Shown here one piece after another: positions 27,611 through 33,080 of a stretch of 64,000 nt of DNA. Under the pieces are notes generated by a model. The model was not told the DNA's origin. It did no database searches and saw only the letters and a list, made by a program, of their open reading frames with translations. Positions within the stretch are counted from its first letter, which is position 1. Each line of letters starts with the position of its first letter. Made by a program: the position numbers and the translations under genes. Origin of the DNA: Sphingorhabdus sp. SMR4y (GTDB taxonomy: Bacteria; Pseudomonadota; Alphaproteobacteria; Sphingomonadales; Sphingomonadaceae); the NCBI RefSeq assembly GCF_002218195.1, contig NZ_CP022336.1, positions 930,001 to 994,000 of the forward strand, given 5' to 3'.

Positions 27611-29020
27611 ATGGGTATGACGGATGAGGCATTTCAGACAAAGCTCGAGAATTACTGCACAAAAACATTTGGCACCGACGGAAAACTCGAGCAATTGCGG
27701 CGATTATCAGGGGGAGCCAGCATGGAAAGCTGGGCCTTCGCTTATGGGGGTGAAGAATTCGTCCTCCGCCGCCTGCCGTCGGGTCTGTCCCCCGATGACG
27801 CCGGCCTGCGCGGAGTCCCGCTAGCGACGCAGGCAGATATCATCGAACTGGCCCGCACCGCCGGGGTCACCGCTCCGGAAGTTCGCGGTCGGCTCAGTCC
27901 GGAAGACGATATTGGCGAAGGCTTCATCATGAGCAAGGCGGCGGGCGAAACCCTGCCGCACAAGATATTAGGCAATCCCGATTTCGCTGAAGCCGAGAGA
28001 AAATTGACCCGGCAATGCGCCCGGGAGCTTGCCGCCATCCACCGGATTCCGGTGCGATCGATCACGGCTCCGCTGGAATATTTTTCACCCGCCGAACTGA
28101 TCCGCCTGCAAAAAGAAAAATATGACGAGATTGGCGGTCATATACCGATTTACGAATATGCCTTTCACTGGCTGGACCGGAACGTGCCGGACGCCAGTGA
28201 CAAATATCTCGTGCACGGCGATTTCCGCATGGGCAATCTGATGATTGGCCATCAGGGCCTATCCGCGGTGCTCGACTGGGAACTCGTCCGGCTCGGGGAT
28301 CCGGTGCAGGACATTGCCTATCTGTGCACGCCAAGCTGGCGGTTCGGTCAATATGAAAAGGTTGCGGGCGGCTTCGACAGCGCCGAATCCCTGTTACGGG
28401 CCTATGCCGAAGCCAGCGGCAGCGAGGTCGACCCGGATCGCTTCCGCTTCTGGCTCATTTATTCCACGCTCTGGTGGGGCGTCGCCTGCATGGTGATGGG
28501 CCAGATATGGCGCAGCCATGGCGACCGTTCGCTGGAGCGAACCGTGATCGGCCGCCGCGTATCCGAAGTCGAAATTGATCTCGCCCTTCTGTTCGAGGAA
28601 ATTCTTCCCGGCGAGATCTGTTCACCACTCGACTGGTCGATCCCCGACGAAAGAGCCGAGACCGGCGAAACCGGATATGGAGAATTGCTGACCGCATTGG
28701 GTGAATGGAACACCGAACATGTCCAGCCCGGCCTTGACGGCCATGCCAAATTCCAGTCCCGCGTTGCTGGCAATGCTCTGGGAATCGCGCGGCGTCAGGC
28801 TGAATGGGGGCCGGATTTTCGCGAGGCGTCCAGAGCGCGCCTGGCCGCTATCGGTTATGATCATGGACAGCTTTGCACCGGCCTTTCAAACGGAGACATT
28901 GGAATTACGGCACCGACCGTCTGGGATCACCTGCGACTATCCGCGCTTGAACGACTGTCTATCGATCAACCCAAATATGCCGGCCTGAAGGTCGCGCTCA
29001 AGAAATGGAGCTCATCATGA
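27611..29020 (+). CDS. APH-family kinase fused to DUF6285-like domain (LvaA-LvaB-like)
   Basis: Residues about 20-330 of this 469-residue protein are an aminoglycoside-phosphotransferase/choline-kinase-type domain: FVLRRLPSG (Lys replaced by Arg pair in the nucleotide loop), Brenner motif VHGDFRMGNLM at 201-211 and metal site AVLDWELVRLGDP at 219-231. Residues about 355-469 are an extra helical domain (ELLTALGEWNTEHVQPGLDG, FQSRVAGNALGIARRQ, LSIDQPKY) that resembles the small stand-alone DUF6285 protein. In Pseudomonas levulinate catabolism a kinase (LvaA) with a small helper (LvaB) phosphorylates 4-hydroxyacyl-CoA. The next gene is an acyl-CoA dehydrogenase overlapping by ATGA. Start 27611 or 27617. 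Confidence 0.8.
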   Translation: MGMTDEAFQTKLENYCTKTFGTDGKLEQLRRLSGGASMESWAFAYGGEEFVLRRLPSGLSPDDAGLRGVPLATQADIIELARTAGVTAPEVRGRLSPEDDIGEGFIMSKAAGETLPHKILGNPDFAEAERKLTRQCARELAAIHRIPVRSITAPLEYFSPAELIRLQKEKYDEIGGHIPIYEYAFHWLDRNVPDASDKYLVHGDFRMGNLMIGHQGLSAVLDWELVRLGDPVQDIAYLCTPSWRFGQYEKVAGGFDSAESLLRAYAEASGSEVDPDRFRFWLIYSTLWWGVACMVMGQIWRSHGDRSLERTVIGRRVSEVEIDLALLFEEILPGEICSPLDWSIPDERAETGETGYGELLTALGEWNTEHVQPGLDGHAKFQSRVAGNALGIARRQAEWGPDFREASRARLAAIGYDHGQLCTGLSNGDIGITAPTVWDHLRLSALERLSIDQPKYAGLKVALKKWSSS

Positions 29021-30294
29021 CCGCTTTCGAAATCCCGCAGGACATTGAAGATTATCTTGGCGTGCTCGATGCCTTCATTGAGGCCGAGATCAAACCGATC
29101 GAACAGCGTGACGACAATATCCGCTTCTTCGACCACCGGCGGGAGGATGCCCGGACAAACTGGGACAATCATGGCCTGCCGACCGAGGAATGGGAGGCCT
29201 TGCTGGTCGAGATGCGCGAGGTGGCCGATGCCGCTGGGCATTATCGCTACGCCCTGCCCAAGGAATTCGGCGGACAGGACGGTAGCAATCTGGGCATGGC
29301 TCGGATCCGCGAACATCTCGCGCACAAGGGGCTCGGCCTGCACAATGATCTGCAGAACGAAAATTCGATCGTCGGCAATCTGGTACAGCCGTTGATGCTG
29401 CGCGATTTCGGTACGGAGCAACAAAAACAGGACTATATTCCCCAGATGCTGGCCGGGAAAATGGGCTGGTGCTTTGGCCTGACCGAAAAAGACCATGGTT
29501 CCGACGCGACATGGATGGATACGACCGCCGTGCGGGAAACCCGTGACGGGGTCGAGGGCTGGCTGATCAACGGCAATAAGATGTGGACCACCGGCCTGCA
29601 CAAGGCCTCGCACGTGATGACCTTTGCCCGGCACAGCGGCAAGGACGGCGACGCAAAGGGCATCGGCTGCTTCATTGTCCCGGTCGATGCAGAAGGGTTC
29701 GAGATCGGCGAATATATGTGGACGTTCAACATGCCCACCGACCATCCGAAATGTTCCTACACCAATGTCTGGATACCTGCCGATGCCGTGCTCGGCGATC
29801 TCGATATGGGCCTCGCCTGCGCCCAGCATTTCGTCCATGAAAACCGCATACGCCAGGCCGCCTCTTCGCTGGGAGCGGCACAATATTGTATCGACGAAGC
29901 AGTGAAATATGCGGGCGAACGCAAGCCGTTTGGCAAGCCTTTGTCGGTCAATCAGGGCATCCAGTTTCCACTCGTCGAACTGCATACCGAAGCGGCCATG
30001 CTACGCCAGCTGATCTATGCAACGGCAGCCAAGATGGACACCATGCCGAAAACGGATGTTGCCAAATATCTCTCTGCCCAGGTCAGCATGTGCAACTATC
30101 GCGCAAACCGGCTGGTCTGCGATGCGGCCGACCGTGCGATGCAGGTTCACGGCGGCATGGGCTATTCGCGTCACAAGCCGTTCGAACATATCTACCGCCA
30201 CCACCGCCGCTACCGGATCACCGAAGGGGCGGAGGAAATCCAGATGCGCAAAATAGGCGGCGACATGTTCGGATTTTTGAACAGGAAAAAATAG
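29017..30294 (+). CDS. Acyl-CoA dehydrogenase, ACAD10/11- or LvaC-like
   Basis: The 425-residue flavoprotein starts at ATG 29017, inside the stop of the kinase gene (ATGA), with GGAG six bases upstream. Acyl-CoA dehydrogenase features are AGKMGWCFGLTEKDHGSDAT (FAD/substrate loop), FAVGERKPFGKPLSV-like segment YAGERKPFGKPLSVNQG, MQVHGGMGYSRHKPFEHIY and the end RITEGAEEIQMRKIGG with the Glu in the usual EG.EIQ context. The coupling to a phosphotransferase is the arrangement found fused in human ACAD10/ACAD11 and separate in LvaA/LvaC, where the pair turns 4-hydroxyacyl-CoA to an enoyl/3-hydroxyacyl-CoA. Substrate is inference. Confidence 0.88.
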   Translation: MTAFEIPQDIEDYLGVLDAFIEAEIKPIEQRDDNIRFFDHRREDARTNWDNHGLPTEEWEALLVEMREVADAAGHYRYALPKEFGGQDGSNLGMARIREHLAHKGLGLHNDLQNENSIVGNLVQPLMLRDFGTEQQKQDYIPQMLAGKMGWCFGLTEKDHGSDATWMDTTAVRETRDGVEGWLINGNKMWTTGLHKASHVMTFARHSGKDGDAKGIGCFIVPVDAEGFEIGEYMWTFNMPTDHPKCSYTNVWIPADAVLGDLDMGLACAQHFVHENRIRQAASSLGAAQYCIDEAVKYAGERKPFGKPLSVNQGIQFPLVELHTEAAMLRQLIYATAAKMDTMPKTDVAKYLSAQVSMCNYRANRLVCDAADRAMQVHGGMGYSRHKPFEHIYRHHRRYRITEGAEEIQMRKIGGDMFGFLNRKK

Positions 30295-30395: not shown

Positions 30396-32669
30396 CTATT
30401 TGGGCTTGATCTGGGTCGCCTTCCAGTCCGCGACGGTGCTGAACGCGGGGACCGAAAGCGAATCCTTGTCAATTTTTGTGGTTGGCACATATCCGGGCGG
30501 CATATTCGGGACTTCCAGCCCCGCTTCCGCGATCAGATAGGGCGACACGCGGCGGCTGGTGCATAGCCCGCCATTGCCATCGCTGACCAGTCGCGTCTCA
30601 AATTCGACGCCCTGCTGATTGCCGCTCGACCGGCAGACCGTCGCCAACGCAAGCTGACCGTCGCCAAAGTCGATCACGAATTTTGTTCCGACCGGCACAT
30701 TGTAGAGGCCTTCCACCAGCGCGCCGCTCACAGACAGGTTGCGGACCACGATCGAGTAGACATGATTTTCGTGGATCAACCGGACCTTGCGGAACATGGA
30801 CAGCCGGTCATTGCGATGGCGACGCGGGCCGGTAGGTTCAATAGTCCAGCTTCCGCCATCCAGATTCTCGACCAGCGCCGCGTTGCTGACCGCCTTGCTG
30901 CAAACATGCCCCTGAACATGGCTGACGTTCAGCTTGCTTATCAGCTCGAATTCGTCGAGCGTCTCGATACCCCCTGCCGTCGTTTCCATCCCGAGCGCGT
31001 CGGCCAGCGCGACGATGGCGGAGATGATCGCGTCATTGCGCGAACCGGGTTCCGTTGCGCCGCGTATGAAATTCTGGTCGATCTTGATTTTGTCAAATGG
31101 CGCTGCCTGCAGATAGCTCAGGGACGAATAGCCGGTGCCGAAATCGTCAAGAACCAAACGGACACCCCGGTCCTTGAGCGCCTCGAACATGGCGCTGGTT
31201 TCCTGGCTTTCGGCCATGAATACGCGCTCGGTGATCTCGAGCTCCAGCCGTTCAGCAGACAGGCCGGATGCTTCTAACGCAGCGTCCACAACTTCCGGAA
31301 ATTGCTGATTGGCAAACTGGTTTGCCGATACATTCACCGCAACCTTTGCTTTTCCGGGCCATCTAGCCGCGTCTTCGCAGGCTTTGTGAATGGCCCATTC
31401 GCCCAGTTTCCAGATGAGATTGGCATCTTCGGCGATCGGGATGAACAGGGCCGGAGCAATCTGGCCGCGTTCCGGATGATTCCAGCGCATCAGCGATTCA
31501 AAACCTTCAACAATATTGGTCTTGGTGTTGACGATAGGCTGGTAGGCAAGCTCGAGCTCGTCCTTTGCGACAGCATCCCGCAAATCTTCTTCCAACAAGC
31601 GCCGGTCTTCGGCTGACTGCTGCAGGTCCTTGGAATAGAAACGGAACCGTCCGCGACCATTGCCTTTGGCTTCGTAGAGCGCAAGGTCCGCACTTTTCAT
31701 TATATCATCGCTCGACAGGCCGTCGAACGGAGCGACAGAGACACCGATTGATGCGCCAATGATGCACCGCTGGCCATCAACAGAATAAGGCTGGGAAAGG
31801 CTTTCGATAATCTTGCCGGCAAGGTCCCCGAGAACACCCCGGTCATCGCAATCGGGTAACATGATCTGGAATTCGTCACCGCCCAGCCGATAGACTTCAC
31901 CGCTCTGTCCGACCATCTTGAGCAGCCGCTCGGCAACCTGTTTCAACAGGGCGTCACCCGCTGGATGCCCCAGAGTGTCGTTAATTTGCTTGAACCGATC
32001 CAGATCGACCAGCATCACCGCACAGGTCCGCTTCTGTATTCGATAGGCTGCGAGCGTGGCTTCCAGTTTTTTTGCCATGCTGGCCCGGTTCGGAAGACCG
32101 GTGAGAGAATCGTACATCGCCAGTCGAGACGTGTCTTCCGAGGCCCGGCGCTGTTTGGTTATGTCACTGCCGCTGCCGCGAAAGCCCAGAAAATTCCCGG
32201 AACTGTCAAAATGGGGTCTGCCGGAAATTGACAGCCAGCACTCTTCGTCCGAATTGCCAGCTTGCACTTCAAAGTCACTGAACTGCATTCTCTTGGTAAA
32301 GATGAATGGCAGGGACCGGGAACCGGCATCATGATGGACGGGCTTGAGAAACAGGGACGCAATCGGCTTTCCGAGCAGGTCAGCGGGGTTACTGCCGAGC
32401 AATTCCGCAATGAATTCCGTTATATAGGTAAGATTGCCCGATGCATCCGTCGACCAGAACCAGCCCTGCCGGCTTTCTTCGAAATTTTTCAGCAGGAGAA
32501 GCGCCTCGGATGCCTTGATATCACCGGACGCGACCGGCGCCTGTGCACCGATCCGGGATCCGATCTTGCCTAAAAGCCTGCGGGAACCGGAAAGGCCGGC
32601 TGTCACGCGCGGGTTTTCAGTACCGACGGATGTATCCAATTCCATTCGTGATGTCTTCTCGCTTGCCAT
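30396..32669 (-). CDS. PAS-GGDEF-EAL-PilZ cyclic-di-GMP protein
   Basis: The frame is open further upstream, but ATG 32669 is the first Met before a sensible domain start; ATG 32645 is an alternative. The 757-residue product has a PAS domain (about 65-175), a GGDEF domain (about 184-345) with intact GGDEF at 263-267 but no RxxD inhibitory site before it, and an EAL domain (about 360-610). The EAL motif reads ESL (VEGFESLMRW), followed by VAVNVSANQF, ELEITERVF, LDDFGTGYSSL and AGGIETLDEF (usually AEGVET). A C-terminal PilZ-like segment (RRHRNDRLSMFRKVR, then NLSVSGALVEG) could bind c-di-GMP. It has no predicted transmembrane segment and is probably cytoplasmic. Confidence 0.9.
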   Translation of the reverse strand: MASEKTSRMELDTSVGTENPRVTAGLSGSRRLLGKIGSRIGAQAPVASGDIKASEALLLLKNFEESRQGWFWSTDASGNLTYITEFIAELLGSNPADLLGKPIASLFLKPVHHDAGSRSLPFIFTKRMQFSDFEVQAGNSDEECWLSISGRPHFDSSGNFLGFRGSGSDITKQRRASEDTSRLAMYDSLTGLPNRASMAKKLEATLAAYRIQKRTCAVMLVDLDRFKQINDTLGHPAGDALLKQVAERLLKMVGQSGEVYRLGGDEFQIMLPDCDDRGVLGDLAGKIIESLSQPYSVDGQRCIIGASIGVSVAPFDGLSSDDIMKSADLALYEAKGNGRGRFRFYSKDLQQSAEDRRLLEEDLRDAVAKDELELAYQPIVNTKTNIVEGFESLMRWNHPERGQIAPALFIPIAEDANLIWKLGEWAIHKACEDAARWPGKAKVAVNVSANQFANQQFPEVVDAALEASGLSAERLELEITERVFMAESQETSAMFEALKDRGVRLVLDDFGTGYSSLSYLQAAPFDKIKIDQNFIRGATEPGSRNDAIISAIVALADALGMETTAGGIETLDEFELISKLNVSHVQGHVCSKAVSNAALVENLDGGSWTIEPTGPRRHRNDRLSMFRKVRLIHENHVYSIVVRNLSVSGALVEGLYNVPVGTKFVIDFGDGQLALATVCRSSGNQQGVEFETRLVSDGNGGLCTSRRVSPYLIAEAGLEVPNMPPGYVPTTKIDKDSLSVPAFSTVADWKATQIKPK

Positions 32670-33080
32670 TGCGAACGAAGTTATAAACGCGAGGTGTTGC
32701 AGAATGGTAAACAACTGTAAAATAATGGACTCGAAAATAGGTGAAGCCAGAACATCGGGTGGACCTGCATAGTGACCCGTTGCTCTGCCTGGTTTCGGCT
32801 CTCGCAACGTGCCTCGAAAAATGTCTCGAGGAGGGAAGCTGCGCCGGAATACCCAGCTATTTGCGTGGCTGGTTTGCAGAGGACCGAGATGACAGCTTCC
32901 GTTTTCCATAGCTGTTCGCGGATCACCGCAAAACCACCCTTGCATTCCCCCGGCAATTCCGCCATAGGCGCCGCTTCCGTCTGATCGGGCCTGCCCTGAT
33001 AGCCGGAAAAGAAGAAAGCCGGAGGGGCGTGTCTGCATGGTGCGGCGTCAGCGATCGGCGGTAAATGAAGGAATGACTGC
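32670..33080. other. 411-base gap between divergent genes, no gene found
   Basis: I see no coding region with family resemblance on either strand; the small open frames here lack SD sites and recognisable motifs. A possible promoter reading toward rpsF is TTGCAT (32940-32945), 17 bases, CATAGG (32963-32968), which would leave a 5' leader of about 105 bases. That leader could hold autoregulatory structure for the ribosomal-protein operon, but I cannot identify one. Confidence 0.4.

Follow-up and report, generated by a model that had tools for sequence, protein, structure and literature searches.

A fused APH-DUF6285 kinase and its adjoining acyl-CoA dehydrogenase in Sphingorhabdus: a predicted third branch of kinase-coupled dehydrogenases

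Based on profile searches, active-site comparisons and phylogenies combined with gene-neighbourhood surveys, we examine a two-gene unit of the sphingomonad Sphingorhabdus sp. SMR4y, in which a kinase of the APH type carrying a C-terminal DUF6285 domain is encoded directly ahead of an acyl-coenzyme A (CoA) dehydrogenase (ACAD). The pair lies in a stretch of 64,000 nucleotides, hereafter the window (contig NZ_CP022336.1, positions 930,001 to 994,000, forward strand). With moderate confidence, we propose that it represents a kinase-plus-dehydrogenase module feeding hydroxylated acyl-CoAs into beta-oxidation, and that its ACAD belongs to a third kinase-coupled branch. The proposal builds on the observed domains of the two proteins, their family placement and the conserved linkage of the parts. 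Explanations for kinase-coupled dehydrogenases are recent and come from mammals and a single Pseudomonas operon.

Results

Domain organisation of the gene pair

The fused kinase is encoded at 27611..29020 on the forward strand (469 amino acids) and combines an APH kinase domain at residues 29-266 (27695..28408; PF01636, E 1.6e-27) with a DUF6285 domain at residues 373-456 (28727..28978; PF19802, E 1.3e-23), the latter all-helical in the structural models. The match of the protein to PF19802 reaches 83.9 bits against a curated cut-off of 28.1, and the C-terminal piece searched alone gives E 1.2e-24, which confirms the DUF6285-like domain named in the original prediction. Both Pfam models are matched by all 29 aligned fused kinases. 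The second protein, encoded on the same strand at 29017..30294 (425 amino acids), carries the ACAD domains PF00441, PF02770 and PF02771 and is assigned from these, its orthologues and trees to a family that we term E-type, a label coined here. Its ATG start codon at 29017 overlaps the kinase stop by four bases, the shared ATGA occupying 29017..29020, so that the originally noted overlap of an APH-type kinase with an ACAD is borne out by the open reading frames as well as by the domains.

The four-base overlap is generally not conserved, an ATGA in the ACAD frame being present at 8 of 30 fused loci in named genomes and 6 of 24 fused loci of the order. The adjacency of the two genes, by contrast with the overlap, exceeds chance, since the fused kinase stands beside the ACAD orthologue at 24 of 29 loci from the order, all 29 read 1.5 kb out, and at 30 of 80 listed loci from named genomes.

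The kinase retains the catalytic loop HGDFRMGN at residues 202-209 (28214..28237), followed by an LDWE motif at residues 221-224. The Asp and the final Asn of the loop align with D220 and N225 of ACAD11 and are invariant in 84 of 84 aligned kinases. An AlphaFold2 model of the fused protein has a mean predicted local distance difference test score (pLDDT) of 93.9 and a predicted template modelling score (pTM) of 0.93; kinase and DUF6285 are covalently joined here, and their joint model is confident. R176 of ACAD11, one of its proposed CoA contacts, is retained by 6 of the 7 kinases that lack a nearby DUF6285 as compared to 3 of 77 kinases with it. Our guess is that the DUF6285 helper may take over part of substrate recognition, which would fit the loss of R176. 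By eye, the alignments also place Gln at kinase residue 74 in the window protein and its near relatives and Glu in many family members; this residue occupies the place of the alpha-C glutamate that adjoins the substrate-binding Arg of ACAD11.

DUF6285 and the LvaB family

Comparisons to LvaA, LvaB and LvaC were made through an apparent lva operon on a Stutzerimonas plasmid, standing in for the Pseudomonas putida sequences. It comprises genes for a PrpR-type regulator, a phosphotransferase, a DUF6285 protein, a histidine phosphatase, an ACAD, a short-chain dehydrogenase/reductase (SDR) and an acyl-CoA synthetase. The small protein in the place of LvaB matches PF19802 at 77.0 bits, and, judged by this profile match, DUF6285 is the LvaB family. 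The designation of the window kinase as a fused LvaA-LvaB type is supported on this ground. In P. putida, LvaB is reported as a 12-kDa protein that is pulled down with LvaA, and growth on levulinic acid as requiring lvaA, lvaB and lvaC (PMC6692424). The term DUF6285 had no match in the library of open PubMed Central (PMC) papers searched.

Histidine phosphatase genes stand beside kinase, DUF6285 and LvaC-type ACAD genes at the Stutzerimonas locus (L045) and at a Thermus locus (L049), and a histidine phosphatase next to such genes has likewise been reported for Pseudomonas citronellolis.

Active site of the dehydrogenase

In ACAD11, R626, H634 and R637 are described as common to LvaC, lacking in conventional ACADs and adjoining the catalytic D753, with non-conservative changes at the three positions disrupting the ACAD step most and R637K only partially (Rashan et al., PMC12440821). 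The same work places His597 near the flavin adenine dinucleotide (FAD). To locate the equivalent columns, 69 bacterial and haloarchaeal ACADs (23 E-type, 15 LvaC/ACAD10/11-type and 31 other) were aligned with ACAD11, whose printed chain is offset by one from the numbering of Rashan et al. The E-type rows are a selection from the loci fetched, and the columns of the 31 distant ACADs are less surely aligned.

All 15 LvaC/ACAD10/11-type rows have R, H, R and D at positions 626, 634, 637 and 753, respectively. The E-type family has F, Q, S (in one row G) and E, the LvaC residues occurring in 0 of 23 rows. In the window protein, the active-site helix spans residues 272-283 (29830..29865, forward strand), F272, R279, Q280 and S283 corresponding to ACAD11 positions 626, 633, 634 and 637. 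The Glu403 codon (30223..30225, forward strand) falls at the position of the catalytic base, where Glu is found in 23 of 23 E-type rows and Asp in 15 of 15 LvaC/ACAD10/11-type rows; we take this site to be the canonical base position of ordinary ACADs. The window ACAD is therefore rejected as an LvaC, as the residues around the 4-phosphate (R626, H634 and R637) and Asp753 are replaced by F272, Q280, S283 and Glu403.

Two further positions characterise the family. Arg at position 633 (R279 in the window protein) is present in 23 of 23 E-type rows and 0 of 46 other rows, and, if the helix is regular, would lie on the same face as positions 626 and 637, where it could hold an anionic group. A His equivalent to His597 occurs in all 23 E-type rows and in 13 of the 15 LvaC/ACAD10/11-type rows, as compared to 1 of the 31 other ACADs.

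Placement of the dehydrogenase among ACADs

The E-type family is recovered as the sister of the LvaC/ACAD10/11 clade in a 61-row tree (support 99/97) and in a 48-row tree (99/99). The former includes all 28 ACAD matches of the window's genome and consists of 15 E-type, 13 LvaC-type and 13 other rows plus 20 more ACADs of that genome, of which two turned out to belong to the LvaC/ACAD10/11 type. For the latter, 14 long-branch or far rows were dropped and a Thermus short-chain-type ACAD was added. Both clades reach 100/99 or better in the 48-row tree, with the window ACAD outside the LvaC/ACAD10/11 clade. Judged by these trees, we interpret the E-type ACAD as one more branch of the kinase-coupled dehydrogenases, the third after LvaC and ACAD10/11. 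A description of the family was not found among the listed titles and abstract starts from open PMC papers.

The original prediction that the dehydrogenase is a coupled LvaC hence does not hold, with the catalytic Asp and the three phosphate-binding residues absent and the protein placed outside the LvaC/ACAD10/11 clade. In the phylogenies against LvaA, LvaC and ACAD10/11 that it called for, the kinase falls on the LvaA side, and the ACAD is a sister to, rather than a member of, the LvaC/ACAD10/11 group.

Phylogeny of the kinase and its fusions

In a tree of 84 kinases, a branch with support 99/96 separates 77 kinases whose genes include DUF6285 or have it nearby, plus one without, from four ACAD10/11-type kinases and two long-branched haloarchaeal kinases encoded beside E-type ACADs. 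The window kinase and the LvaA-type kinases both belong to the DUF6285 side. This grouping with DUF6285-linked kinases and away from the ACAD10/11 type, together with the LvaB-family assignment of DUF6285, upholds the predicted LvaA-LvaB fusion.

The best tree shows fusions to DUF6285 at three points, namely in the sphingomonad group that contains the window kinase (100/98), in another group of alphaproteobacterial kinases (100/98), and at the single locus L138, which lies inside the LvaA group. Fusions at several places in the tree would be expected if the fused proteins function jointly. At least three independent fusions cannot be claimed, as the best tree needs three changes and the well-supported branches force only two; the data do not reject a single origin for both larger fused groups (approximately unbiased test, p-AU 0.242).

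Distribution of the family and linkage of its parts

Searches with the window ACAD gave matches at E <= 1e-100 in 160 of 396 genomes from the order, and at E <= 1e-60 in 60 of 387 genomes from the class and 25 of 299 from the phylum. The weakest match at the phylum level has E 7.7e-175, a gap rather than a slope, which indicates that the family is discrete; by these searches it is strongly conserved and widespread. A pattern scan of named genomes yielded at least 80 E-type loci, and the counts below are among 80 listed ones, which include Parasphingorhabdus, Sphingorhabdus, Erythrobacter, Hyphomonas, Bradyrhizobium, Marinobacter, Alloalcanivorax and Halieaceae. Records from a plasmid collection add Sulfitobacter, a Rhodobacteraceae strain, Nocardia farcinica and haloarchaea (57-66% identity). 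The pair predicted for a sphingomonad is accordingly present there, though far from peculiar to one sphingomonad, being widespread across classes. One ACAD orthologue (L056, G696:C1:545191-546453) is listed with a TAA stop within the match.

Among the 80 loci, 30 have a fused APH-DUF6285 protein near the ACAD and 18 have separate APH and DUF6285 genes. Outside the Pfam scans and genome family searches, such neighbourhood calls rest on BLAST or self-built profiles. Linked kinase, DUF6285 and ACAD genes are seen in gammaproteobacteria, Bradyrhizobium, Sulfitobacter and Nocardia, the order in the last being DUF6285 (own profile), APH and ACAD. Whether as fusions or as separate genes, kinase, DUF6285 and E-type ACAD are thus neighbours in alphaproteobacteria, gammaproteobacteria and Nocardia.

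The association extends to whole genomes, DUF6285 mostly being found even where its gene lies apart from that of the ACAD. DUF6285 is present in 58 of 60 alphaproteobacterial genomes with an E-type ACAD as compared to 37 of 327 without (387 genomes). The counts are not corrected for relatedness, and the 60 genomes span 26 families. When a control ACAD from the same genome is used instead, DUF6285 is present in 68 of 195 carriers, and among these carriers the domain is found in 50 of 52 genomes with an E-type ACAD and 18 of 143 without. The profile also detects DUF6285 in 22 of 23 further genomes picked for having an E-type ACAD; the exception (G440, L065) encodes a fused kinase whose end matches the window DUF6285 by BLAST at E 9e-12.

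Neighbouring genes in other genomes, here as chosen examples, fit a role in CoA-ester catabolism. A CoA ligase, hydratases and a thiolase lie near the ACAD in Sulfitobacter, an AMP-binding ligase follows it in Alloalcanivorax, a hydratase is found in Marinobacter and at L116, and a CoA-transferase at L210. AMP-binding genes occur in all three haloarchaeal records and hydratases in two. In these three records, a hypothetical protein of about 158 amino acids (L243:7281-7760, L244:7277-7750 and L246:5397-5876) adjoins the phosphotransferase gene beside the E-type ACAD. The two that were scanned, those of L243 and L244, gave no DUF6285 match, and the protein may be a helper of separate descent that fills the role of DUF6285.

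Surroundings of the pair and related enzymes in the genome

In the window, by eye and BLAST, the neighbours of the pair are fab genes, a GGDEF/EAL-like gene and ribosomal genes. The protein that adjoins the pair (30396-33038, reverse strand, 880 amino acids) has motifs that suggest a GGDEF/EAL signalling protein.

Elsewhere, the same genome encodes an ACAD10/11-type ACAD with the motif LADGPDEVH (L013:8698-10005, G000:C1:1463698-1465005) near an APH kinase without DUF6285 (L013:11116-12177, G000:C1:1466116-1467177), a second ACAD10/11-type ACAD (L269:6588-7886), and, on the reverse strand, an LvaC-like ACAD with an Asp base (L268:8570-9745, G000:C1:1985570-1986745) that is 52% identical to the Stutzerimonas LvaC. 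The gene between the ACAD and the kinase at L013 resembles, by eye, a zinc alcohol dehydrogenase. The window pair is hence not the sole such route in its genome, a point in favour of a different substrate or, less likely, of a fused kinase that works for the LvaC-like ACAD.

Discussion

We propose that the pair operates as follows. The fused LvaA-LvaB-type kinase would move phosphate from ATP onto the hydroxyl of an acyl-CoA, yielding a phospho-acyl-CoA; the DUF6285 domain would serve as an integral helper, probably in recognition of the CoA-bound substrate. Glu403 would then remove the alpha proton, the FAD would take and subsequently return a hydride, and phosphate would be expelled, leaving an enoyl-CoA without net oxidation that would enter beta-oxidation. 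This cycle of proton removal, hydride transfer and phosphate loss is the one put forward for ACAD10/11 in the published account, and is carried over here by homology. We infer that the kinase acts on a hydroxyacyl-CoA, that the ACAD accepts what the kinase has phosphorylated, and that Arg279 takes the place of the lost phosphate clamp. A hydroxyl at the 4-position is possible.

Several observations weigh against this proposal. R626, H634, R637 and Asp753 are all absent, and non-conservative changes at such positions are reported to abolish the ACAD step of ACAD11. Searched against the PDB, the E-type profile ranks CarC (187 bits) and a short-chain ACAD (174 bits) ahead of ACAD11 (125 bits), in conflict with the trees, and the data speak only moderately against a topology in which the family is forced next to the short-chain and isobutyryl-type rows (p-AU 0.036, 48-row set). 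Among the 80 listed loci, 30 are without APH plus DUF6285 near the ACAD, with 2 more ending too close to tell, and 2 of the 60 E-type genomes (G107 and G363) are without DUF6285. The kinases linked to E-type ACADs do not form one clade (9 changes on the tree as compared to 28.0 in shuffles), the haloarchaeal ones grouping with ACAD10/11-type kinases on the long-branched side. Finally, by eye and BLAST, no substrate is indicated by the pair's own neighbour genes in the window.

The conflict between trees and profile bears directly on the nature of the ACAD. It may act on a special acyl-CoA as an ordinary alpha,beta-dehydrogenase, with the kinase acting at another step of the same pathway, as the canonical Glu at the base position, the precedence of ordinary ACADs in the PDB profile and the best NCBIfam match, an acryloyl-CoA reductase (182.5 bits, far below the cut-off of 640), would suggest. 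However, the family is a sister clade of kinase-coupled ACADs, has His597 in common with them and co-occurs almost constantly with DUF6285, and we regard this alternative as unlikely. On the clustering with ordinary ACADs, which the trees disfavour and the PDB profile favours, we tentatively give the trees more weight, because they use relatives from the same genomes and because of the shared His597.

If the ACAD does eliminate phosphate, the position of the hydroxyl has to be considered. Chemistry identical to that of LvaA-LvaC, on a 4-hydroxyacyl-CoA and with Arg279 and Glu403 standing in for the lost clamp, would be in agreement with the sister relationship of the two clades, with an LvaA-type kinase carrying an LvaB-type domain, and with the Arg at position 633 confined to E-type members. 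Yet all four residues that mark the LvaC/ACAD10/11 type are replaced, and a genome that already has an ACAD10/11-type pair and an LvaC-like ACAD would not need a duplicate route, which leaves this option doubtful. Alternatively, a hydroxyl away from C4, for example at C3 or C5 or as a tertiary branched alcohol, would be phosphorylated, and an ACAD with an ordinary Glu base would eliminate the phosphate; a precedent comes from the 25-hydroxy steroid kinase, reported to activate a tertiary alcohol for dehydration. We regard this assignment as equally doubtful. The same holds for its most far-reaching form, in which the ACAD would be a third phospho-acyl-CoA lyase, acting on something other than a 4-hydroxyacyl-CoA and using R279 as its phosphate arginine. 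Together with the DUF6285 kinase, it would then constitute an undescribed entry route into beta-oxidation, extending from alpha- and gammaproteobacteria to actinobacteria and, with another small helper, to haloarchaea. It is also conceivable, though quite improbable, that the LvaC-like ACAD of L268 is the main partner of the fused kinase. That enzyme resembles the Stutzerimonas LvaC and carries the Asp, the genome holds a single DUF6285 match, and no kinase or DUF6285 match was found in the 19 kb read at L268; against this, the kinase gene overlaps that of the E-type ACAD and the two adjoin in many genomes.

Should the kinase-plus-dehydrogenase proposal be correct, the E-type family would represent a third branch with a signature that can be searched for and assayed, i.e. 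F-R-Q-S on the active-site helix, the Glu base and the shared His597. DUF6285, in turn, would gain a job as a partner or built-in part of kinases, as its repeated fusion and co-occurrence suggest.

Among known systems, the pair differs from the 25-hydroxy steroid kinase of Sterolibacterium denitrificans, which acts on a steroid side chain and for which the abstract mentions no ACAD or DUF6285 partner. It shares with LvaA-LvaB-LvaC of P. putida an APH kinase of the DUF6285 clade, a DUF6285 helper and an adjacent ACAD. In the window, however, a single protein combines kinase and helper, the ACAD comes from a sister clade without the LvaC active-site residues, and no SDR, CoA ligase or transporter gene is seen beside the pair in the list of open reading frames. 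ACAD10 and ACAD11 differ in being one protein where the window has two plus DUF6285, in their kinase, which, judged by bacterial ACAD10/11-type kinases, lies across the kinase tree from that of the window, and in an ACAD with Asp, R626, H634 and R637 where the window protein has Glu and none of the three. In both, nevertheless, a kinase is coupled to an ACAD, and the ACAD clades are sisters.

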